Shown: positions 4,076-17,263 of the stretch, piece after piece
Layout of the letters: the number at the start of each line of letters is the position of its first letter
Position numbering within the stretch: the first letter of the stretch is position 1
NCBI GenBank assembly: GCA_023474345.1
Contig: JAMCXS010000030.1
Location: forward strand, 1 to 64,000
Direction of reading: 5' to 3'
DNA length: 64,000 bases
DNA from: Acidobacteriota bacterium
GTDB lineage: Bacteria; Acidobacteriota; Terriglobia; UBA7540
Program-made: the position numbers and the translations under genes
The notes under the pieces: model-generated
What the model was told of the DNA's origin: nothing
Databases searched by the model: none
Seen by the model: the letters and a program-made list of their open reading frames with translations, nothing else

Positions 4076-4144
4076 TATCACGACCGGCCGCGCCAAAGAG
4101 CATGAGGAATTTACGCGGGCCCAATGCGCCTGAGCGGCATTGTC

Positions 4145-4586
4145 CTAGACATTCGACAGCACGACAATAACGCCCTTCCCATAGAATGTCAAGGGGAAAG
4201 TCGCGCAGCCTTTTGCCCCGCAGCGCCTCATAAAAAAACGCAACCGCGGCGATTGGGTGAAGTAGGTTTGTTGGGCGGCATCGGCGCGTGATAAAGCGTC
4301 CAAGTAAGCTGCCAGCCAGCCGTCATGCTTCTTGAGCAACTGTAAACTTTTTCGGCGAACCCGGGCTTACACCTACCAGATTTTCCCAGGCGGGTTTGAC
4401 GGAAGGCCCTCCAGGAACCACTACGTGTCCAGATTGGATCGAAATCAGGTTTCCGTAGTAGTCGAGAACCGCCGCGAGTGGAATGGGCTACTCCAGTCCC
4501 CGGGTTTGTCGCGGCAGCGCCCGGGTCTGTTGCGACGACACCCCAATAGCGAAAATAAAATCAAGCCGGTGCCGGGAGTGTAACAT
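4145..4586 (-). pseudogene. Decayed remnant of an unidentified protein gene
   Basis: On the minus strand, fragments of protein-like sequence fall in two frames. ATG 4586 begins MLHSRHRLDFIFAIGVSS and stops at TAG; the same frame continues with VLDYYGNLISIQSGHVVVPG and PAWENLVGVSPGSPKKFTV, then stops. A one-frame shift near 4340 gives LLKKHDGWLAAYLDAL and AQQTYFTQSPRLRFF. The join reads naturally as SPKKFTV followed by LLKKHDGWLAAYLDAL. The tail reminds me of a large acidobacterial repeat protein family, but I cannot name it with certainty. One stop plus one frameshift in about 440 bases indicates a dead gene fragment. Confidence 0.45.
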
Positions 4587-4820
4587 TGACGGGCGGGTTG
4601 ATTCAATGTGGTTTATCCGCCGTCACCTGACCCCGAAAGCACTCGCCATCCAGCTTTGCCTTACCCATGAGTGCCGCAACCCCGCCGCCACGCCTGCAAA
4701 GCCCGGGTCACATGCCATGACTGGTGTAACATCGCCCGCTCTTTGACAGCAAGACGAACGCCTTCGTTCAAAAAGCTCAATGATTTCATCTTGATTGCGG
4801 ATTTGGTGCCAAGCGCGGCG

Positions 4821-4976
4821 CTAACTCTCCTTGGCGCGCGGTGGGTTTCCCTGCAGCACCACTTTGCCGCATTTCCAGCACATCAGGTTTATGCCGCTTG
4901 GTGAGATCCATAGCGGACCTTCGCCGCAGTAAGGGCAAGGGTCTCCCTTTTGTAACGTACTCGTTTCTGGCTTCAA
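4821..4976 (-). CDS. Small zinc-ribbon protein, 51 residues
   Basis: Short frame with two CxxC knuckles 22 residues apart: CPYC about residues 14-17 and CWKC about 36-39, a spacing fitting one rubredoxin-type zinc ribbon. It ends with VVLQGNPPRAKES. No ATG is available at the front; the best start is TTG 4976, with an AGAGAG stretch about 15 bases upstream, which is a poor distance. The frame itself stays open back to 5030, overlapping the end of the next small gene, so translational coupling is possible. Function unknown; nucleic-acid or protein binding would be usual for lone zinc ribbons. It could also be a gene fragment. Confidence 0.42.
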   Translation of the reverse strand: MKPETSTLQKGDPCPYCGEGPLWISPSGINLMCWKCGKVVLQGNPPRAKES

Positions 4977-4999
4977 AATGGTCGCAGTATACTCTCTTG

Positions 5000-5167
5000 T
5001 TAGCGGGACATCAAACTTTTCCTTAGCAGCTCAGTGGCCTCGTCCAGGCGCTCGTGCACGTAAGTCTCGTATAGTCTGATCTTCTTTTTAAACAAGCTGA
5101 TGCGAACAACGGACAAGGCATGACTCACCATAAACCCAATCGCGAATGCGAGAAGCTCCTTTTCCAT
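5000..5167 (-). CDS. Small single-span membrane protein, 55 residues
   Basis: ATG 5167 is preceded by GAGGG four bases upstream. Residues 5-25 form a hydrophobic helix (LLAFAIGFMVSHALSVV), followed by a basic stretch KKKIRLYE and an amphipathic helix rich in Glu, Leu and Arg (HERLDEATELLRKSLMSR). This gives one membrane span with a short charged tail. I do not recognise a family. It lies directly upstream of the zinc-ribbon ORF on the same strand, and the two may form a small transcription unit. Confidence 0.45.
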   Translation of the reverse strand: MEKELLAFAIGFMVSHALSVVRISLFKKKIRLYETYVHERLDEATELLRKSLMSR

Positions 5168-5757
5168 ATTCCCTCAGATTTTCCAAAAAGATCGCTAAGC
5201 ACCGTTGCCGTCGCTGGAGAGCACCTGAATGAAACGTTACGCGGCTGTTTGTCACACTTCTGTTTTCCAAGAGGTTTGGACGCCCGGGCTCTAGCGGCGA
5301 AGAAGGCACTACTACAGGAACAGGAGCAAATTACTGAAGTGTGCAGCAACGCCCTTCAAATTATGCCCCCTTGTGATCAGCATGGCAGCTGGAATAACAT
5401 CCATTGAAATCTGAGCTTCCTCCTGTCCGCCGCGTGAGGCGGAGTTAATAAGCTATCACCTTTGCCGCATAGCGCAGCAAGTGAGCTGCCAAAGCCGCGC
5501 TTGCTTATATGCTGATTTCAAAAGACTACCTAGGCTAAACATTTATCATTTCTTTAGTCTAAATGCAACTTTGGCCGGTGATAGGAAATTTCTTCACTCG
5601 CCCGTGTAACTGAAACCTCGCGCGACCTGGTTTCGCCTGTGATGCCTAAACTACAAAATAATGCTGGAAGTCAGCCGCCGTCTCGGGTTTTAATTGGTCG
5701 AGTTCAGCTTTAGCCCCAAGCATCTTGATAAGAACTTCTGAAAGAGAAGAGTGGCCT
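5168..5757. other. Intergenic region, no convincing gene
   Basis: About 590 bases. ORFs here show no domain signs and start poorly. A GC-rich imperfect hairpin with GCAAGTGAGCTGCC is near 5479-5510. The segment 5515-5640 is A/T-rich and may hold the promoter of the next gene, but I see no clear -35/-10 pair. Confidence 0.5.
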
Positions 5758-7938
5758 ATGCTTGGCAAGCGGATCTTACTCGCTGCGATGATCGGGCTTA
5801 GTATCACGCCTTTTTTCGCTCAAGACACGAAATACCCCCCGCAGGATGAGCAGATACCGGGACCTCCTATCTATCCTGAGAGGTCACGTTCCTGCTGCAA
5901 CGGTTTAAATCGGCAAGAGTATGCGGTCAAGGTTTTTGAGGAATGGCTTGCGGACATCAAACATTTCCGAATGGAGCGCTTGATTCGCGCGGGCTATGAT
6001 GCTGCGCAATATAGTCGGCCGGAGCTCAAGTGGACTCAAAGTTCATTTATTCAGCCGCAACTGATGATCCAAGACCGCTATTTCTATGACCCGGTTACGC
6101 ATGAATATACGGTCGGGCGGTACCTCGACGACCTGAAGAGGCGTTATGGCGGGACCGATGCCGTTCTGATCTGGCCTACTTACCCCAACCTCGGAATTGA
6201 CAATCGCAACCAGTACGATTGGCTGCGGGACATGCCGGGAGGCCTCGCAGGCGTGCGGCAAATGATCGAGGATTTTCACCGCCATGGCGTGCGGGTGCTT
6301 TTCCCGGTCATGCTCTGGGATCAGGGAACACGGGACGAAGGGATACCTAACTGGGTGGCCACCGCGCGGTTGCTCGCGAACGTCGGCGCTGATGGGGTTA
6401 ACGGTGACACGCTCCACGAAGTGCCACTGGCCTTCCGGAAAGCTTCGGATGCCACCGGCCATCCCCTCGCCTTTGAGCCGGAACTTTCGCTCGAGAATCC
6501 ATCCGAAGCCCTAGCCTGGAACAACATGAGCTGGGGCTATTGGAAGTACCCTTTTGAACCGATGGTAAGCCTTTACAAGTGGCTTGAGCCCCGGCACATG
6601 GTAAATGTTTGCGACCGCTGGGCTCGCGATAAGATCGACAATTTGCAATTTGCCTTTTTCAACGGTGTCGGCTACGAAAGCTGGGAAGACATCTGGGGCA
6701 TTTGGAATGGAATTAAGCCCCGGGACGGCGAGGCGATCCGCTGCGTGGCAACCATCGAACGCGCCTTCCCCGAACTGCTTACCAGTCGCGATTGGACGCC
6801 CCATACGCCAACCTTGCAATACGGCATCTTTGCCAGTAAATTCCCTGGAGAAAATGAAACTCTCTGGACCATTGTCAACCGCAATGAGTACGATGTTCAC
6901 GGCAAGCAGATTGAAGTTCCTTACGAGGCCGGCACTCGCTATTTTGACCTTTGGCACGGGGTTGAACTGAAGCCCGCCGTCGAGGGCAAGATGGCCGTCC
7001 TGAGTTTTGAAGTTGAGGCTCGCGGCTTTGGCGCCATTCTGGCAACGTCCCATGAAGCGGACCAGAAGCTCAGCAGACTTCTGAGCACGATGCATGAACT
7101 TTCGCAAAGGCCGCTGAGTTCTTTTACGAACCAACGGACCTTTCTTCCACAACATATCGTGGAAATCCCTCGCACTAAACCTGCCGCCAGTGCCCCGCCG
7201 TGCATGGTCCGGATTCCGGGCGGTGAGTTTGTGTTCAACGTTCATGGAATTGAAATCGAAGGCGGCAACGCCGTCGGGGTGGATGTCCAGGAGCCTTGGG
7301 AGGATTCGCCCCGGCGCTTCCATCGTCATCGGATGTACATTGACAGCTTTTACATCGACCGCTATCTAGTCACCAATGCTGCGTACAAGAAATTTCTCGC
7401 GGCCACCGATTATCACCCCGAGGATGACCACAACTTCCTGAAAGACTGGAAGGACGGCACATACCCTGAGGGTTGGGGTAACAAACCTGTAACCTGGGTT
7501 TCGCTTAAAGACGCGCGCGCCTACGCCGCGTGGGCCGGCAAGCGGTTGCCGCACGAGTGGGAATGGCAGTACGCCGCGCAGGGAACGGACGGGCGAATTT
7601 ATCCATGGGGCAACAAGTGGGACCCTGCCGCCGTGCCGAAGCTAGACACCAGACGGGATCTTCCTCCGCCAGCCGACGTTGACGCTCATCCCAAAGGCGC
7701 CAGCCCTTTTGGCGTAATGGACATGGTCGGGAACGTGTGGCAATGGACGGACGAATTTGAGGGCGCTCACACTCGTGCGGCCATTCTGCGCGGAGGCAGC
7801 CACTATCATCCGCATGGTTCAGGTTGGTATTTCCCGGAGGCGTTCCGGCTGGATGAACACGGCAAGTTCTTGCTTATGGCTCCCAGCACCGACCGCTCCG
7901 GAACCGTCGGTTTCCGATGCGCGGTGGATGCCGAATAA
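5758..7938 (+). CDS. Secreted GH-like protein fused to an FGE/SUMF1-like domain
   Basis: 726 residues from ATG 5758, which follows GAGAAGAG; an upstream ATG (5725) would spoil the signal peptide MLGKRILLAAMIGLSITPFFA. The N-terminal two thirds read like a TIM-barrel glycosidase-like domain: DAVLIWPTYPNLGIDNRNQYD, then GVRVLFPVMLWDQGTRDEG, GADGVNGDTLHE and a beta-rich end near 430. The C-terminal third (about 465-726) is an FGE-sulfatase fold: MVRIPGGEF, IDRYLVTNAAYKKFL, PVTWVSLKDARAYAAWAGKRLP, GNVWQWT, GGSHYHPHGSGWYF, GFRCAVD. The two cysteines used by true formylglycine-generating enzymes, expected just after GGS, are absent, so sulfatase activation is unlikely; such domains often bind or modify other substrates. 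A permease, a sulfatase-fold gene and a GH27 gene follow on the same strand. Substrate unknown. Confidence 0.82.
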   Translation: MLGKRILLAAMIGLSITPFFAQDTKYPPQDEQIPGPPIYPERSRSCCNGLNRQEYAVKVFEEWLADIKHFRMERLIRAGYDAAQYSRPELKWTQSSFIQPQLMIQDRYFYDPVTHEYTVGRYLDDLKRRYGGTDAVLIWPTYPNLGIDNRNQYDWLRDMPGGLAGVRQMIEDFHRHGVRVLFPVMLWDQGTRDEGIPNWVATARLLANVGADGVNGDTLHEVPLAFRKASDATGHPLAFEPELSLENPSEALAWNNMSWGYWKYPFEPMVSLYKWLEPRHMVNVCDRWARDKIDNLQFAFFNGVGYESWEDIWGIWNGIKPRDGEAIRCVATIERAFPELLTSRDWTPHTPTLQYGIFASKFPGENETLWTIVNRNEYDVHGKQIEVPYEAGTRYFDLWHGVELKPAVEGKMAVLSFEVEARGFGAILATSHEADQKLSRLLSTMHELSQRPLSSFTNQRTFLPQHIVEIPRTKPAASAPPCMVRIPGGEFVFNVHGIEIEGGNAVGVDVQEPWEDSPRRFHRHRMYIDSFYIDRYLVTNAAYKKFLAATDYHPEDDHNFLKDWKDGTYPEGWGNKPVTWVSLKDARAYAAWAGKRLPHEWEWQYAAQGTDGRIYPWGNKWDPAAVPKLDTRRDLPPPADVDAHPKGASPFGVMDMVGNVWQWTDEFEGAHTRAAILRGGSHYHPHGSGWYFPEAFRLDEHGKFLLMAPSTDRSGTVGFRCAVDAE

Positions 7939-8009
7939 TCCAAGGTAATCAGGCGCACGCGTGATGTTACGATCCGGTCGAAATCCTTACGTGACGAAGG
8001 ATGTCAACA

Positions 8010-9002
8010 ATGTTCGTGCCCACTGCCTATAGTGCTGCTCTTTTGATGATGATTCTCAGCATGGTTTGTTGGGGAAGTTGGGCCAATACTCAGAAGCTTT
8101 GCAAGAACTGGCGCTTTGAGCTCTTTTACTGCGACTACATGTGGGGCATCCTGCTGATCTCCGTATTCATGGGATTCACTCTGGGCCGAACCGATCTCGC
8201 GAGCCCGGAGAGCTTTATGGCTAACCTCGGCGCGGCGGACGTCCACCATCTGCTGCTGGCATTCCTGGGGGGAATTATCTTTAACGTCGCCAACATCCTC
8301 CTGGTGGCAGCAATCGCCATTGCGGGCTTGGCTGTCGCTTTTCCTATTGGCATTGGCCTGGCTTTGGTGATCGGGTCGGTTCTCAATTACCTCGTCACGC
8401 CGGCAGGGAACCCGGTGTTGCTGTTCAGTGGAATCTTTCTGGTTTGCGTGGCAATTGTGCTGGACGCCATGGCTTATCGGAAAGTCTCGCAGGATTTGAA
8501 GCTGAGCACCAAAGGCATTCTGTTGAGCCTGCTATGCGGCGTGGGAATGGGGCTGTTTTATCCCTTCGTCGCCAAGGCCCTGACGGGCAAAAATCACCTG
8601 GGGCCTTACACGGTGGCCTATGTTTTCGCGCTTGGCGCGCTGGCCTGCGCGCTTCCGCTCAACTATGCCATGATGCGAAAACCGGTTTCCGGTCCGCCCG
8701 TTTCGATCGTTGACTACTTGCGGGGGACCAAGTCTTTGCACTTCTGGGGTGTCCTTGGAGGAATGATCTGGGGAGTCGGAACGATTTCGAATTTTGTCGC
8801 TTCCTATGTGCGGATGGTCGGTCCCGCCACTTCCTACGGTTTGGGCCAGGGCGCTACGATGGTTTCGGCGATTTGGGGAGTATTTGTGTGGAAGGAGTTC
8901 GCTGGGGCCGACCGTAGCGCCAAGCGCCTCCTGGCGATGATGTTCGTGGTTTTCATTCTGGGACTTTCCTTGGTTGCCTTGGCGCCCGTGGTCAAGTTCT
9001 AG
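8010..9002 (+). CDS. DMT-superfamily permease, ureide-permease-like
   Basis: About 330 residues with roughly ten hydrophobic segments, starting MFVPTAYSAALLMMILSMVCWGSWANTQKL. The CWGSWANTQK motif and overall pattern match ureide-permease-like or GRP-type members of the drug/metabolite transporter superfamily. ATG 8010 has AAGGA eight bases upstream; ATG 8001, three codons earlier, sits directly on that sequence and is less likely. The neighbours suggest import of a sugar or another breakdown product. The stop codon TAG lies inside the left terminal repeat of a small repeat element (9000-9089). Confidence 0.75.
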   Translation: MFVPTAYSAALLMMILSMVCWGSWANTQKLCKNWRFELFYCDYMWGILLISVFMGFTLGRTDLASPESFMANLGAADVHHLLLAFLGGIIFNVANILLVAAIAIAGLAVAFPIGIGLALVIGSVLNYLVTPAGNPVLLFSGIFLVCVAIVLDAMAYRKVSQDLKLSTKGILLSLLCGVGMGLFYPFVAKALTGKNHLGPYTVAYVFALGALACALPLNYAMMRKPVSGPPVSIVDYLRGTKSLHFWGVLGGMIWGVGTISNFVASYVRMVGPATSYGLGQGATMVSAIWGVFVWKEFAGADRSAKRLLAMMFVVFILGLSLVALAPVVKF

Positions 9003-9212: not shown

Positions 9213-11111
9213 ATGAGATTGAAGTTTGGCAAATCCTTTTTGCATACCGTCATGGTCTCAGCATTTTTCTTTATCCCGAAATTAGCCCTCGCCGCACAGG
9301 GAAAAACTACCCCTCCTTATAACATCATCTTGCTTACCCCCGATCAGTTGCGGGCGGACTTCATGCACACATACGGATATCCTTATCCGGATACGCCTAA
9401 CATCGACCAGTTAGCGAGTGAAGGAACCGCCTTCACCAGGATGTATGCGGGAGCGCCGTGGACCACGCCCTCGTTCGGTGTTATTCTCACCGGTCTATTC
9501 CCAACCGTTCACGGAATGACCCTTCCTCCCTACGAGGGTTGCGGTCCTTCGATCAGCCGCCCGCTCACCAACGGCGAGATCCCGACCGTTCCGTCGCTAT
9601 TGCTGCTCTCTCCGTATAAGCTTATCATTCCCGAGGTGCTGAAGAAGGACGGCATGGTCGCGGCCGTGGACGATGCCAACTGCTGGTCCATCTGGGACGT
9701 GGTGAATCGGGGCTGGGATGATTTTAAGTTTTTCCCAGGCTACCAGTTACCGGCCCCGGGGCATCCGGGCTCGAGCAGTTTCTACTTGACGGCACCGAAG
9801 ACGACCGCCTGGGCCGAGCAGTGGCTAACGGCTCATCGCGATCAGCGGTTCTTCTTTTGGATCCATTATATGGAACCGCACGCTCCTTATAACGAGCCCG
9901 CCGCGTACGACCGCTTCAAGACTCCGGATGATTTCCCGAATGAGCCCGACGGCAGAACCCTTCATAGTCTTGCGAAGTTACAGAACATTCACGCCATCCG
10001 GCGGTTGCAAGAGCTGTATGCCGGAAAGATTTTGTACATGGACCATTTTGTTGGTCAGCTCCTCAACACTGTTCACACGCTTGGGCTCGACAAGAACACG
10101 ATCATTATTCTGACGTCTGACCACGGGCAGCTTCTTTATTCCCATCCTAAGGACTTTAATACGGACGACCATCGCTCACTTTATAACGCTGATTTACACG
10201 TCCCATTAATTTTCCGCGGGCCGGGTATCCCCTCAGGCAAAAGATTAGAAGATCTTGCAAGCAACTATGACATCTTGCCCACCATACTGGACCTGGAAAA
10301 CCTGCTGCCGCCTGCCCACACGGACGGTGTCAGCCTCAAGGGGATCATCCAGGGAACCACGTCCGAGCCTCCGAATCATTACCTTTACTGCGAAGAGAGC
10401 AATCTCACACCCCAGTACTCTATTCGAAACCTCCACTACAAGTTGATTGAGACGATGCCCACAGGAAAGATCCAATGTTTCGACGAAGCCACCGACCCGA
10501 GGGAGCTCCACAACATCTGCGCGCAGATTCCTGAGGAAGCAGCGAAATTGAAGGCGGCGCTGGACCTGCACATTCAGTTGCTCATCCGCCAGGCAAAGTC
10601 ATACCCGGACTGGCGGAACAATTTGGCGTTGGCAGTGCTCGATCAACGGGACTCGAAGGCGCTGAACATGCTTGCGCCACACCGTTTGATAGTTGCACCT
10701 ACCGGCGGATCACACTACCAACTGACTGGTCGGGCGTGGTCCATCGTCAAGGGATTGAATAAATTTGGCAATTTGGCTTATTGGGCCCCACCAGGGCCTG
10801 CCACGGCATACGTTATCTGGAGATCTGATACGCCGCTGATTGGAGAGTACGAGATCTCGGTGTGGTATGGAGGCACTGGCCAGATCGGCATGAAACAGGC
10901 CACCGATGCGGACTACACGGTTCGCTTTAAAGGAGGCTCTCTGTCTTTTCCTTTTAACCAGAACGAGGGGCAGGGAGAGTGGCATTCACTTGGTAGCTTT
11001 CATGATCCCGCCTCGGTGGAACTGACCAACCGAGCCGACGGTGCGGTGGTCGCCGGGGCCGTCCGATTTGTACGGGTTCAACAGGCGGAAGTCCGCCCGG
11101 CATCTCGCTAG
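9213..11111 (+). CDS. Secreted sulfatase-fold hydrolase with golvesin-like C-terminal domain
   Basis: 632 residues from ATG 9213, with GGAGG six bases upstream. The signal peptide ends near residue 28 (KLALAAQG). Alkaline-phosphatase superfamily, sulfatase branch: metal-site strand IILLTPDQLRADF (about 39-50), nucleophile region APWTTPSFGVILTG (81-94), and LTSDHGQL further on. In classical sulfatases the nucleophile motif is C/S-x-P-x-R; here it reads T84-T-P-S-F, so there is no residue that could become formylglycine and the Arg is replaced. Thr may be the nucleophile, as in related phosphodiesterases. Residues about 500-625 (YEISVWYGG, FNQNEGQGEWHSLGSF, AGAVRFV) look like the golvesin/Xly carbohydrate-binding-like domain. 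Could be a phosphodiesterase, phosphatase or atypical sulfatase. Linked to glycosidases. Confidence 0.82.
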   Translation: MRLKFGKSFLHTVMVSAFFFIPKLALAAQGKTTPPYNIILLTPDQLRADFMHTYGYPYPDTPNIDQLASEGTAFTRMYAGAPWTTPSFGVILTGLFPTVHGMTLPPYEGCGPSISRPLTNGEIPTVPSLLLLSPYKLIIPEVLKKDGMVAAVDDANCWSIWDVVNRGWDDFKFFPGYQLPAPGHPGSSSFYLTAPKTTAWAEQWLTAHRDQRFFFWIHYMEPHAPYNEPAAYDRFKTPDDFPNEPDGRTLHSLAKLQNIHAIRRLQELYAGKILYMDHFVGQLLNTVHTLGLDKNTIIILTSDHGQLLYSHPKDFNTDDHRSLYNADLHVPLIFRGPGIPSGKRLEDLASNYDILPTILDLENLLPPAHTDGVSLKGIIQGTTSEPPNHYLYCEESNLTPQYSIRNLHYKLIETMPTGKIQCFDEATDPRELHNICAQIPEEAAKLKAALDLHIQLLIRQAKSYPDWRNNLALAVLDQRDSKALNMLAPHRLIVAPTGGSHYQLTGRAWSIVKGLNKFGNLAYWAPPGPATAYVIWRSDTPLIGEYEISVWYGGTGQIGMKQATDADYTVRFKGGSLSFPFNQNEGQGEWHSLGSFHDPASVELTNRADGAVVAGAVRFVRVQQAEVRPASR

Positions 11112-11172: not shown

Positions 11173-12342
11173 ATGAGGCTTCGAGCTCGGCAGGTTTGGA
11201 GTACCACCTTCCTCATGGCGGTGTTCATAGGCGTATGGGCGGGGACGCGCAGTTACGGTCAGGCGTCCCGGCTGGCTTCGACGCCGCCCATGGGTTGGAA
11301 CGATTGGTATCAGTATGGATGCACCGTTAGCGACGCCATCGTTCGGGCAAACGTTGATGTGTTGGTCAGCAGCGGAATGCGGGACGCCGGTTATAAATAT
11401 GTCAATATTGACGACTGCTGGCAGGGAAAACGTGATGCGCAGGGATTCATTCACCCGAACAGCCGCTTCCCGGATATGAAGGCACTCGCTGATTACATTC
11501 ATAGTAAAGGTTTGAAATTTGGCCTTTATTCTTCACCCGGTCCCAAAACGTGCGCGGGTTACGAAGGCAGTTATCAGTACGAGAGACGGGACGCAGAAAC
11601 TTACGCCAAGTGGGGCGTGGATTTCCTCAAGTACGATTGGTGCAGCGCCTCGAGGGTGTACGCGCCGGACCAGATGCAGGCAGCTTACAGGAAAATGCAC
11701 GAGGCGCTTGAAAGCACGGGCCGTCCGATTCTCTTCAGCCTTTGTCAGTATGGACTGGAAGGCGTGTGGCGTTGGGGAGCCTCGGTGGGCGGCAATATGT
11801 GGCGTACAACTCCTGACATCGGTGGCAATTACGACCGCGTTTCTTTATTCGGGTTTATGCAGAATGGGCTAGAGACGTATACTGGTCCCGGGCATTGGAA
11901 CGATCCGGACATTCTGCAGATCGGTCTGGGCAGGCTCAATCACGACGAAGAGCTCACGCAAATGAGTTTATGGTGCTTGCTTGCCGCTCCCCTTCTGGCC
12001 GGAAACAACTTGACCAAAATGAGCAACGACACTCTCAAAATCCTGACTAATCCGGAAGTTATTGCAGTGGATCAGGATCCTGAGGGGATTGAGGGGCATC
12101 GCGTCTGGCAGGAAGGGCCTCTGGAAGTTTGGGTCAAGCCGCTTTCGGACCGCAGCATGGTGGTAGGCTTGTTTAACCGGAGCGAGTCGCCTCTGCCGAT
12201 TACCGTGAGGTTCAAAGCGATCCGCATGAAAGACAACGTCCGAGTCCGTGACCTTTGGGCGCGAAAGGACCTAGGCGACTTCCACGGGCATTACACTGCC
12301 AAAGTTCCGCGCCATGGCGTTGTGCTGCTTAAGTTGGAATGA
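11173..12342 (+). CDS. GH27 alpha-galactosidase, secreted
   Basis: 389 residues with AGGAGG nine bases before ATG 11173 and a signal peptide ending near SYGQA (residue 31). Glycoside hydrolase family 27, a retaining clan GH-D enzyme that removes terminal alpha-galactosyl (or related) residues. Motifs: TPPMGWNDW (38-45), NIDDCWQ (78-84), nucleophile Asp155 in FLKYDWC, acid/base Asp215 in WRTTPDIGGNYD, then PGHWNDPDILQIG. A C-terminal beta-sandwich ends the protein. Length matches single-domain GH27 enzymes. It follows the sulfatase-fold gene by 62 bases and precedes a RhaT-like transporter by 61 bases on the same strand, so a shared transcript is likely. GH27 also includes beta-L-arabinopyranosidases; the exact sugar is not certain. 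Confidence 0.93.
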   Translation: MRLRARQVWSTTFLMAVFIGVWAGTRSYGQASRLASTPPMGWNDWYQYGCTVSDAIVRANVDVLVSSGMRDAGYKYVNIDDCWQGKRDAQGFIHPNSRFPDMKALADYIHSKGLKFGLYSSPGPKTCAGYEGSYQYERRDAETYAKWGVDFLKYDWCSASRVYAPDQMQAAYRKMHEALESTGRPILFSLCQYGLEGVWRWGASVGGNMWRTTPDIGGNYDRVSLFGFMQNGLETYTGPGHWNDPDILQIGLGRLNHDEELTQMSLWCLLAAPLLAGNNLTKMSNDTLKILTNPEVIAVDQDPEGIEGHRVWQEGPLEVWVKPLSDRSMVVGLFNRSESPLPITVRFKAIRMKDNVRVRDLWARKDLGDFHGHYTAKVPRHGVVLLKLE

Positions 12343-12402: not shown

Positions 12403-13431
12403 GTGATCGATCATTTCTGGCTTGGCATGGCTGTTATTTTTCTCAGCGGCGCGCTGAACGGTAGCTTCGCGCTGCCCATGAAGTACACTCGGCGCTGGCG
12501 ATGGGAAAACACCTGGCTGGTTTTCACGATTATCAGCTTGATCATTCTGCCGTGGTTGCTGGCTTCGGGGTTTGTTCCACGGCTGCACGACCTTTACCGT
12601 CAGTCGCCCCGCGAAATCCTGGTCTATCCCCTAGCCTTCGGGTTTTTGTGGGGCATCACGCAGACGACATTTGGAATAGGAATTAGCGCTGTAGGCATGG
12701 CGCTCGCCTTCACAGTGGTTTCAGGCTTGGCTTGCCTTTCGGGTTCACTCGTGCCGCTCCTGGCCCTGAGCCCAGGCGAACTTTTTCAGCCCCGGGGAAT
12801 CCTGCTTCTCACCAGCATGCCTATCCTCTTTCTGGGTCTATTTTTTTACGGCAAGGCGGGGCGCCGGCGAGAGCGTGAACAGCCTGCCCGCCCGCCTGAG
12901 CCTGGTGGAATCAGTTACAGCTTCGCCGTCGGGCTCGGGATCTGCATCTTCACAGGCATTGTGGGCTCAGCCTGGAACGTTGGCTTTGCTTTCAGCGGTC
13001 CCCTGATCCGCCGGAGCGCGGAACTGGGCGCAGCGTCGCTCGCGGCCCCCTACGCCGTCTGGGCGCTGATTTTTACCGCGGGCTTTATCCCAAACCTGCT
13101 TTACTGCGCTTATCTTCTTTCGCGGAACGGAACGTGGTCGTTATTCAGCGAGGCGGGGTCGGTAAAAGAGACGATGCTCGGCTTAGCGATGGCCCTGCTT
13201 TGGCTTGCGGGAGTTGTCGGCTACGGCATCGGCGCGACTTTCGTGGGAAGGTACGGGACGTCGATCGGCTTCACGCTTTTTGTTGCCGCTCAGATTTTGG
13301 CGTCAAATATGCTAGGAATTCTGGCCGGCGAGTGGAAGGCGACTTCGGCGACGACGAAACGGGTCCTGGCTGGGGCGGTGGGTTTTACACTTCTTTCGGT
13401 CATTATCCTCAATCTTGGCGGGCTTTTCTGA
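12403..13431 (+). CDS. L-rhamnose/proton symporter family transporter
   Basis: 342 residues, about ten transmembrane segments, matching RhaT of the DMT superfamily: FLSGALNGSFALPMKY near the start, FGFLWGITQTTFGIG (about 79-93), NVGFAFSGPLI (about 190-200). GTG 12403 is supported by GGAAGGAG six bases upstream. Its position at the end of the glycosidase run suggests it imports a released monosaccharide, with rhamnose as the family default. No rhamnose isomerase, kinase or aldolase gene is seen nearby, so the substrate could differ. Confidence 0.85.
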   Translation: MIDHFWLGMAVIFLSGALNGSFALPMKYTRRWRWENTWLVFTIISLIILPWLLASGFVPRLHDLYRQSPREILVYPLAFGFLWGITQTTFGIGISAVGMALAFTVVSGLACLSGSLVPLLALSPGELFQPRGILLLTSMPILFLGLFFYGKAGRRREREQPARPPEPGGISYSFAVGLGICIFTGIVGSAWNVGFAFSGPLIRRSAELGAASLAAPYAVWALIFTAGFIPNLLYCAYLLSRNGTWSLFSEAGSVKETMLGLAMALLWLAGVVGYGIGATFVGRYGTSIGFTLFVAAQILASNMLGILAGEWKATSATTKRVLAGAVGFTLLSVIILNLGGLF

Positions 13432-15013: not shown

Positions 15014-17263
15014 TCACGCCTTCCATGTCGCAATCCAGGAAGTTGTTTCCGGAGCCACCAGAACAATATTTCCCTTCTGGTGCGCTGGGGCGTTTTCGAC
15101 TCCCACGAAATGAAAACGCCGTCCCAGGTACAGCGGTAATTGAACGCTGGCAGGTGTCGGCCCTGTTCCGCGTTTGAATATTAGTTTCCATCCTTGCTTG
15201 CGATCCAGGGGTTCGAGCTTCATGCTGACTCGCCCGAACTTCGTGGGAGAATCATCGAGCGTGAACGGGTCTTGCCCGAGAAGCTCGAAATCTCCAATGC
15301 CGGCCAGCAGCCGCAGGTCTTCGTCATCTTCGAGCGCCAGCATGTGGCGCAAATAAAGCACGCATTCAGCGCTCGCCCAATTGTGCGGCATGTCGCCAAC
15401 ATAGCCGGCCACCAGAGATCCGCGCAATGGCTGTTCCTCGCGCCAGCAGTAAAGCGGGCTGGCGTGGTTGAGAAACCCGTTGAACGTCATGCGTCCCCAA
15501 TCCTTCAGGCCGGCCCACAGATAAACATGCGCGACAAAGGGAGCGTTGTACGTCCACAATCCTCCATGATGCAGCCAGCCCGTTTCCGCCGGGACATCTT
15601 CCTTCGTGCACGCTTGCATCAGCTTAATGTGCCCTTGCACGATGAAATCCTGCTTGTCGAAGACCAGTCCGGGATAAATGGCATGGGAAAGGGCCCACTG
15701 GCCCGTCTGGGGCCGAGGCCGGTCCCATTTATTCGGGAGCGACCACGCCGGGTCTTCGTTCATCAGCATGGGCAGGTATTCAAAGCCCGTTTTGTAGCGC
15801 CGCATTTCTTTTCGGGCAGCGGCAAAGAAGGAGCTGCGCAGCTCGTGGTAAAACTCACCCGTGGATTCAAATTCCGGAAGCTTCAGCCGATCGGCGGCCC
15901 GCGTGACTGCCCTTAATCCTGCCAGCACCCAGAGAGTGTTCGTAAATTCGTCCTGAATGCCTCCCAGGCCGCCATCGCCAAACCCCGGCGGGAGCAATCC
16001 ATATTTGCCATTCAGGCTTTTACCTTCTCTTGCCTGGGCGCGAAGGTCTCTCAAGAAGTCAACTGCCCGCAACACGTTGGGAGTCATTTTGCGGAAATAA
16101 CTCCAGTCCTGGCTTAGTTCAGCCTGCCGGACCATCGTGAACATTGCGATGCCGGTATCTTTCCAGTGCTCACGTCCGGCTGAGGCAACGATCTGGCCAT
16201 CGGGGTTCTGGCGAGACCACTCGGTTTCCAAACCCTGCTGCGCGTCGGCATCGTAGCCTAGGTAACGCGCCGCTTCCAAAATAAAGTTGCCATCTACAAT
16301 CCAGAGCCCACGATAGACTGTCGGGCCCACCTGGAACGTCAGTTTTCCGTCGCGCACTTCGCGCGCCTGCTGGATATTGCGCGCGCAGGCCACCAGGAAT
16401 TGCCCGTAGCGATCCGGCAGGTGCCAGGAAACCTTGCCGCCATATGGGCTCCAGGCTTGCCAGTAGTCTCGTGCGGACGCCAATAGGTGCTCCGGTCTTT
16501 TCAACCCGTCCGCTAGTCTTTCAAGTCCCTGGCCCTCCTGCGGGAAGCGGCAAAAGTAGGTTAAAGGGCGATCACCGCTTGTAACTCCATCCTTCAACAC
16601 CAGCCTGTCGCCTGCGCCGGTCTGTCCGTTGCCGGAGGATGTGTTTATAACCAGAAACAGCGAGCCGGCCTCTTCGCCCAGGTTGACCGTCGTCGTATTT
16701 GCCGTGCTCGTGATTTGCAATTCGTGCCCGGTCGTTATTTCGAGCAGCGGGGTGGCATGGAGTTCCTTCTGGGTTCGCGGCCAGACTTCCATGATCACGT
16801 TATCCACGCGCCCTTCCGCCGGGTCATTAGTGGCAAACGTGGTCAGCTCCAGATAGGCTTCCGGACGGTCGATCCGGGTATGGACAATCGGCACGCCGGG
16901 AGCCTCCAGTTGCTGACTGGCCACCTTGTCGGCTTCCATCCCGAGCAGGGAAAACTTTACTATTTCCGGAAAATAGTAAAGTGGTTTGCCTCGGCCGGGA
17001 TTGCCGTAACGCAGTTCGCCGAGTTGGCCAATCAGGCTCTTATGGTGATCGTCAGGGAAGCAGTAGGCGGTCTGCCAGGCAAGCGGCGCATACCGGAAAT
17101 CGATTGCCGCAGGTCTGTCCTGCGTTTCCACGGCAACGCCTTCTGCCGTTGCGTCTACCACTTGGTTTGCCGGGGCTGGCGCGGTGACGTCGCGCGGCAG
17201 TACAGTCGCCCCGAGACCCGCGCTCAACACAGCTAAAAAATCTCTCCGGTCTACGTTTTTCAT
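15014..17263 (-). CDS. Secreted six-hairpin glycosidase-like protein
   Basis: 749 residues, with GGGAGGAAAG upstream of ATG 17263. The N-terminus MKNVDRRDFLAVLSAG is a Tat-type signal (RRDFL). After a beta-rich front part (about 50-280), the rest is an alpha/alpha toroid as in six-hairpin glycosidases: QVGPTVYRGLWIVDGNFILE, WKDTGIAMFTMVRQ, GLLPPGFGDGGLGG, QDEFTNTLWVLAGLRA, ETGWLHHGGLWTY and NWASAECVLYLRHML. Acidic residues in the DGNF and QDEF segments are candidates for catalysis. No exact GH family can be assigned by eye; rhamnosidase-like or unsaturated-uronide-like activities are options. It sits 5' of the ManD-like gene on the same strand. Confidence 0.75.
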   Translation of the reverse strand: MKNVDRRDFLAVLSAGLGATVLPRDVTAPAPANQVVDATAEGVAVETQDRPAAIDFRYAPLAWQTAYCFPDDHHKSLIGQLGELRYGNPGRGKPLYYFPEIVKFSLLGMEADKVASQQLEAPGVPIVHTRIDRPEAYLELTTFATNDPAEGRVDNVIMEVWPRTQKELHATPLLEITTGHELQITSTANTTTVNLGEEAGSLFLVINTSSGNGQTGAGDRLVLKDGVTSGDRPLTYFCRFPQEGQGLERLADGLKRPEHLLASARDYWQAWSPYGGKVSWHLPDRYGQFLVACARNIQQAREVRDGKLTFQVGPTVYRGLWIVDGNFILEAARYLGYDADAQQGLETEWSRQNPDGQIVASAGREHWKDTGIAMFTMVRQAELSQDWSYFRKMTPNVLRAVDFLRDLRAQAREGKSLNGKYGLLPPGFGDGGLGGIQDEFTNTLWVLAGLRAVTRAADRLKLPEFESTGEFYHELRSSFFAAARKEMRRYKTGFEYLPMLMNEDPAWSLPNKWDRPRPQTGQWALSHAIYPGLVFDKQDFIVQGHIKLMQACTKEDVPAETGWLHHGGLWTYNAPFVAHVYLWAGLKDWGRMTFNGFLNHASPLYCWREEQPLRGSLVAGYVGDMPHNWASAECVLYLRHMLALEDDEDLRLLAGIGDFELLGQDPFTLDDSPTKFGRVSMKLEPLDRKQGWKLIFKRGTGPTPASVQLPLYLGRRFHFVGVENAPAHQKGNIVLVAPETTSWIATWKA

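Follow-up and report, generated by a model that had tools for sequence, protein, structure and literature searches.

A bacterial protein family joining an amylase-like barrel to a cysteine-less FGE-fold domain, and its link to ribose catabolism genes

Several described systems resemble the protein reported here, for which we use the name GH-FGE. Its C-terminal part has the fold of the formylglycine-generating enzyme (FGE/SUMF1, PF03781; human FGE and S. coelicolor FGE), and 222 residues could be aligned with the S. coelicolor structure 2q17 (Z 20.4, rmsd 3.3, 33% identity). In contrast to FGE, however, GH-FGE lacks both catalytic cysteines, is fused behind a glycosidase-like barrel and has no Cys-type sulfatase in its locus. 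SUMF2 (1y4j, Z 20.5), CalU17 (6vqp, Z 21.3), ToxD (7spq) and PvdO (5hha) share the FGE fold as well (Z 18.3-21.3), but their matched chains comprise 266-316 residues, have no GH-like barrel and belong to other pathways. The N-terminal part resembles the GH13 alpha-amylase TVAII (1jf5), which has the same barrel and β-sandwich fold and matches the model of this domain over nearly its whole length (Z 22.7, 338 aligned residues, rmsd 3.8). Yet the identity is 12%, the Arg two positions before the β4 Asp and the conserved β7 Asp of GH13 were not found in alignments A3 and A5, and there is no Pfam match. The GH129 3,6-anhydro-D-galactosidase ZgGH129 (5opq), compared by fold and not residue by residue, aligns with 326 residues of the full model (Z 19.4), but at 11% identity. 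All these structure matches were drawn from the Foldseek top 1000, and families beyond those could still match. As for gene content, the rus ribose-scavenging locus of Bacteroides thetaiotaomicron, reportedly described by Glowacki and colleagues in 2020, is said to consist of a receptor, a transporter, a ribokinase and ribose-releasing enzymes. The same logic is found here, and locus L095 is a SusC-SusD version of it with GH-FGE. A literature search, with subscription papers largely outside its scope, yielded no description of a barrel fused to an FGE fold.

The window, i.e. the whole stretch of 64,000 nucleotides from an Acidobacteriota bacterium that was analysed, contains the following features:

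5758-7938, + strand: GH-FGE, a putatively exported two-domain protein of 726 aa, from ATG at 5758 to the stop codon ending at 7938 (ORF calling, Pfam, model)
5758-5820, + strand: signal peptide-like segment MLGKRILLAAMIGLSITPFFA, followed by QD (by eye from the sequence)
5941-7092, + strand: alpha-amylase-like (β/α)8 barrel with C-terminal β-sandwich, residues 62-445 (fold model, structure matches, conservation)
7189-7935, + strand: FGE/SUMF1-fold domain without the catalytic Cys pair, residues 478-726 (Pfam, structure matches, alignments)
7789-7833, + strand: motif RGGSHYHPHGSGWYF, residues 678-692, the site of both cysteines in genuine FGEs (motif comparison)
8001-9002, + strand: RhaT/RbsU/ureide-permease-type sugar transporter, 62 bp 3' of GH-FGE (Pfam, NCBIfam)
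9213-11111, + strand: sulfatase-superfamily protein (PF00884) with Golvesin_C and Thr at the nucleophile position (Pfam, E 2e-45)
11173-12342, + strand: GH27 alpha-galactosidase-like protein (Pfam)
12403-13431, + strand: RhaT-type sugar symporter, the second in the window (Pfam, NCBIfam)

The fusion pointed out in a preliminary description of this DNA is real, as a single ORF encodes both the barrel (residues ~62-445) and the FGE fold (~478-726). An AlphaFold model of the full-length protein, built with 65 homologues, reached a pLDDT of 89.9 and a pTM of 0.88. The sole Pfam match is FGE-sulfatase PF03781 (residues 483-722, E 1e-36), which, together with the 2q17 match, bears out the assignment of the C-terminal fold; residues 1-440 gave no Pfam match. 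The protein would be periplasmic or outer-membrane-facing after export. On the 5' side, 1.6 kb (4106-5724) are free of ORFs of 100 aa or more, and a 749-aa ORF at 15014-17263 (- strand) has no Pfam or NCBIfam match.

The fusion had been regarded as an oddity. Full-length homologues in Acidobacteriota, Pseudomonadota and Bacteroidota reveal a conserved family instead of a chance fusion. Besides the window's own genome, 24 of 101 searched genomes have a GH-FGE match with E 9e-169 or better (in G022 and G037 in pieces), and the N-domain occurs in 22 of 297 genomes of a phylum sample. A GTDB scan yielded at least 79 loci, the best of 571 confirmed candidates. MAG contigs may carry a wrong taxon label. 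Among the GTDB loci are isolates, namely Edaphobacter lichenicola, Granulicella, Asticcacaulis, Duganella, Steroidobacter agaridevorans and Lysobacter arvi. Plasmids of Sphingopyxis (51% identity) and Spirosoma (33%) carry further homologues; a homologue of Sphingopyxis sp. FD7 is WP_120222584.1. All divergent members that were fetched possess both domains and measure 687-1129 aa. One divergent branch from other Acidobacteriota (L117-L126) is distinguished by an extra N-terminal region and a length of ~930-1130 aa, and it is surrounded by housekeeping genes (MreB, sigma-70, S66 peptidase, PIF1-like helicase). We found no ribokinase at this branch and no sugar-uptake genes among ten scanned neighbour proteins (nine of them from L117, L118, L119 and L125), one of which, at L125, resembles L-fucose isomerase. 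In locus L033, a 251-aa frame just 5' of a divergent member (6861-7613, - strand) gives a partial match to the N-domain profile (E 2.5e-9). At L050 and L052, one locus holds a pair of GH-FGE copies in divergent orientation, separated by FG-GAP/ASPIC, TPR and aldo-keto reductase genes. GH-FGE is a widespread, unstudied family of secreted bacterial proteins, and its link to ribose catabolism is the new finding.

This link, the informative clue, is the gene context of the relatives, which the preliminary description had missed while reading architecture, Cys loss and barrel correctly. When the neighbours in the best 79 of the 571 loci were clustered, ribokinases (pfkB kinases), ureide-permease/RhaT-type transporters and LacI-type regulators turned up at 22 loci or more each, outer-membrane receptors (OMP) at 17 or more, and ADP_ribosyl_GH proteins, several of which have signal peptide-like or lipoprotein-like starts, at seven or more. 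These counts are lower bounds, because the ORF caller chose antisense frames and missed genes such as the L113 ribokinase, which was found otherwise; many of the 79 loci also lie on truncated contigs. At 1e-60, all 22 clustered kinases match the two ribokinase models, TIGR02152 and PRK11142, and none of the other NCBIfam models. By tblastn, a transporter of the RhaT/RbsU type lies near GH-FGE at 28 of 82 loci. A typical order is LacI regulator, OMP, transporter, ribokinase and GH-FGE (L094, L109, L128).

How tight the linkage is depends on the lineage. Ribokinase adjoins GH-FGE in all nine genomes of the acidobacterial family f10 (all f10 genomes with full-length matches, leaving out G238 with its partial match in a 61-aa frame). 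Judging by their coordinates, G323 and G388 are one genome, which was counted once. In the window's family f1, represented by every genome whose match is full-length or nearly so, minus the window's bin G000, the two genes adjoin in five of 21 genomes (G006, G014, G022, G033, G037). The remaining 16 have the ribokinase on another contig, and some of the contigs with GH-FGE are long; the linkage is therefore far from universal. For comparison, a hand estimate with ~1.2 ribokinases per 5-Mb genome puts the chance of a ribokinase within 10 kb on either side near 0.5% per genome. Within 1.5 kb of 25 loci (L003-L027) we found the transporter ten times, ribokinase seven times and either of them twelve times. 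In a ribokinase search of 17 genomes, six of which (L080, L094, L109, L112, L060, L066) had been picked in the knowledge that they have a ribokinase, 13 possess the enzyme, and in all 13 one copy lies in the GH-FGE locus.

The pair also exists outside Acidobacteriota, in Steroidobacter and Lysobacter. On the Sphingopyxis plasmid a TonB receptor, a ribokinase (so named in its record), GH-FGE and a GH127-domain protein follow one another in this order, and the ribokinase and GH-FGE genes overlap by 4 bp. L095, labelled Bacteroidales, comprises, in this order, SusC, SusD, GH-FGE, an esterase, ribokinase, an ADP_ribosyl_GH protein and a transporter. The 38 kb around the Spirosoma homologue contain no annotated ribokinase. 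In the window itself no ribokinase was found; the transporter directly 3' of GH-FGE shares 59% identity with the L060 transporter that is linked to ribokinase. A pooled scan of 98 further neighbour proteins (drawn from 121 within the size limit, out of 142 candidates, after genes with the label GH-FGE, LacI, ribokinase or transporter had been set aside and further recurring or short ones had been removed manually) uncovered no family above 3/98. Since the GH-FGE genes so often lie beside genes for ribose transport and ribose burning, the protein probably functions in ribose scavenging and not in sulfatase activation. That it is tied to ribose or pentose catabolism in the broad sense we consider very probable.

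A more specific proposal, to which we give an even chance, is that GH-FGE is an exported ribose-releasing glycosidase for the scavenging of D-ribose (or a near pentose), with the FGE-like domain as substrate-binding module. A TonB/SusC-type outer-membrane receptor would admit a ribose-bearing compound, and the GH-FGE barrel would then cleave it outside the cytoplasm and free the pentose, with D217 and E242 as candidate carboxylates. The freed sugar would be imported by the RbsU/RhaT-type symporter and phosphorylated by the ribokinase, and a LacI-type repressor may control the whole gene set. The FGE-like domain could act as a fixed, highly conserved module that binds the substrate or shapes the active site. 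Whether the product is free D-ribose itself is, in our estimate, evenly balanced. Several observations speak against a ribose glycosidase. The linkage is patchy, and no ribokinase was detected at 1e-60 in the window's bin (75% complete), in two Duganella genomes and in one Asticcacaulis genome; the divergent branch beside housekeeping genes has none either. In addition, E242 is replaced by Gln in L044 and L107, and the profile similarity to GH13 is weak. Furthermore, amylase-fold enzymes act mostly on pyranosides, but ribose usually occurs as a furanoside. A bolder version, which we hold to be rather unlikely, is a new GH family in which the amylase-type barrel and the Cys-less FGE domain jointly build the active site and liberate D-ribose from an environmental ribose polymer or riboside. 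The exported protein would then be the first enzyme of a system for scavenging ribose, which gene transfer would have carried through Acidobacteriota, Pseudomonadota and Bacteroidota. If the ribose-releasing function is true, a large number of soil bacteria export a so far unrecognised enzyme that takes ribose from decaying matter, and the FGE fold has been reused inside a carbohydrate-active enzyme.

The same hydrolase logic could apply to another pentose, i.e. D- or L-arabinofuranose, apiose or 2-deoxyribose, although we regard this as unlikely. It would fit the furanosidase-like partners of some loci: the GH127-domain protein (beta-L-arabinofuranosidase domain) that follows GH-FGE in Sphingopyxis (L189, 5438-7228, + strand), and a DUF2961 protein directly after the ribokinase in L115 (5108-7393, + strand), DUF2961 being presumably GH172, the D-fructo/D-arabinofuranosidases. 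Locus L094 encodes glycerate-2-kinase-like and 5-keto-gluconate epimerase-like proteins and a split transketolase, which likewise leave room for another sugar. On the other hand, all 22 kinases fit the ribokinase models best and specifically, and the L094 locus has a ribose-5-phosphate isomerase B (RpiB, TIGR01120, 185.5 against a cut-off of 138.65) ~5 kb downstream.

Turning to the FGE-like domain, the segment after GGS in the window protein reads RGGS-HYHPHGSG-WYF (678-692), and the absence of cysteine there, which had been noted from the window alone, holds for the family. None of the 65 rows of alignment A2 and none of the 15 rows of A5 has a cysteine at residues 678-699; six rows are common to both, so that 74 distinct members were checked. 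A Cys pair at other positions does not exist either. The window protein has cysteines only at 46, 47, 285, 329, 482 and 721, of which C482 is present in one of 65 rows, and C721, in the GFRC motif, in 63 of 65; the GFRC cysteine also occurs in genuine FGEs of relatives. These genuine FGEs (L160, L161) carry the Cys pair in the segments RGGSWLCASNYC and KGGSFLCTDQYC. By motif, the catalytic positions correspond to GH-FGE residue 684, which is Q, R, K, H or another amino acid, and residue 689, where ten different amino acids occur. This correspondence rests on the motif and not on the MAFFT alignment, as MAFFT misplaced the GGS motif of the genuine FGEs. GH-FGE is thus almost certainly a Cys-less two-domain protein that is no FGE, and a role of the domain as an oxidase is not supported. 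To treat the missing pair as a distinguishing oddity was, however, the wrong emphasis: among 29 FGE-like ORFs of related genomes only L160 and L161 have it, and the 27 without it, one of them a GH-FGE member, indicate that Cys loss is ordinary for the FGE fold.

Eight residues of this domain (D534, Y552, W564, E602, W603, D655, W690, Y691) are fully conserved in A2 and A5. In 1995 of 2080 pairs the FGE-like domain has a higher identity than the barrel has (mean 68.9 vs 58.8%), and the same is true of 100 of 105 pairs of a wider set (54.6 vs 38.7%); as the better conserved half, it must be under strong constraint. That it binds the substrate we think possible, at slightly less than an even chance. 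The conservation could also mean that the main function, be it catalysis or binding, lies with the FGE-like domain, which would be C-type-lectin-like or PvdO/EgtB-like and act on a ribose-bearing compound, with the barrel as a degenerate accessory. In favour of this idea, FGE-like folds reportedly serve as ligand-binding scaffolds in the variable proteins of diversity-generating retroelements (PMC5006420, PMC6328139). It also agrees with the name "SUMF1/EgtB/PvdO family nonheme iron enzyme", under which both plasmid homologues are annotated. We nevertheless deem it quite unlikely. The copper ligands of FGE, i.e. both cysteines, are missing in every row, and the NCBIfam models for EgtB, SenA, OvoA and PvdO reach 22-62 bits, where their cut-offs lie at 360-500. 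For the sulfoxide/selenoxide synthases the equivalog cut-offs are far off (EgtB 62.4 vs 360, OvoA 27.2 vs 400, SenA 58.9 vs 420 bits), and the best stretch matched by any of these models is confined to the FGE-like domain. Moreover, the invariant carboxylates of the barrel persist through the divergent branch. The database name is probably misleading for GH-FGE.

The barrel had been called glycosidase-like from the sequence, in agreement with the alpha-amylase-type structure matches and with a confident model of the N-domain alone (residues 60-450; pLDDT 91.2, pTM 0.90). It could not be placed in a known GH family by Pfam. For residues 60-450 none of 33 members gave a credible hit (best E 0.027, to an unrelated family; GHL6 E 0.23), the Pfam Alpha-amylase model matched neither the window protein nor any of the 33, and profile searches of the PDB, started from two alignments of the N-domain, remained at chance level (best E 0.031 and 0.086). 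A profile comparison with GH13 proteins of related loci was weak (hhalign probability 20.6%, E 0.0011) and in register only at β2-β3. Alignments A3 and A5 show neither Arg at residue 215, two before D217, nor a conserved β7 Asp, so GH-FGE was not filed as GH13, while alignment A7 displays R186-x-D188 and N307-H-D309. The barrel is best read as an undescribed GH-like family that has no Pfam model.

Eleven barrel residues do not vary in any row of A2 or A5 (D148, H174, W187, D188, T191, D212, D217, N302, G303, G305, R335). In retaining alpha-glycosidases of the amylase fold, the nucleophile follows β4 and the acid/base follows β5. According to the model, D217 stands just after β4 (213-216) and E242 just after β5 (238-241), which makes them candidate catalytic carboxylates; E242 is kept in 63 of 65 and 15 of 15 rows. 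The motif W187-D188-x-x-T191, D212 and D217, present in 65 of 65 and 15 of 15 rows and thus in both branches, suggest catalysis, and we judge it fairly probable that the barrel is a hydrolase. They also argue against a mere glycan-binding protein of the cell surface or periplasm, in which both domains would have lost catalysis and a ribose-containing substrate would be captured for the receptor. Such a protein would be in line with the Cys-less FGE part, the missing GH13 Arg and β7 Asp, the Gln in place of E242 in two of 65 rows, and the match of the N-domain to amylase-fold CD98hc (8g0m, Z 19.5), which we take to be inactive. Given the invariant residues, and a SusD of its own already present in L095, we find this distinctly improbable.

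Finally, a function of GH-FGE as a formylglycine-generating enzyme for a neighbouring sulfatase, which the PF03781 domain and a PF00884 gene ~1.3 kb 3' might suggest, can practically be dismissed: no member has the catalytic cysteines, in the neighbour Thr stands in place of the nucleophilic Cys, and tblastn found a relative of it at only one of 82 loci. The preliminary description had seen no normal sulfatase nearby. This holds in a narrow sense only: the PF00884 protein is there, but it reads APW-T-TPSF at the site of the C/S-x-P-x-R motif of FGly sulfatases. In the window the gene is probably co-transcribed with GH-FGE. Together with GH27 and the second RhaT-type symporter, it looks like a local addition; GH27 and an enolase-superfamily protein were dropped as conserved partners, occurring at two and three of 82 loci, respectively. 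The window's bin G000 (75% complete) has two PF03781 proteins, GH-FGE and an OvoA/EgtB-like protein, and no genuine Cys-bearing FGE was found in it. The bin nonetheless encodes three sulfatase-family proteins with Cys at the expected place (L130, L133, L134), as well as at least four more sulfatase-superfamily proteins with Thr there (L131, L132, L135, L137).
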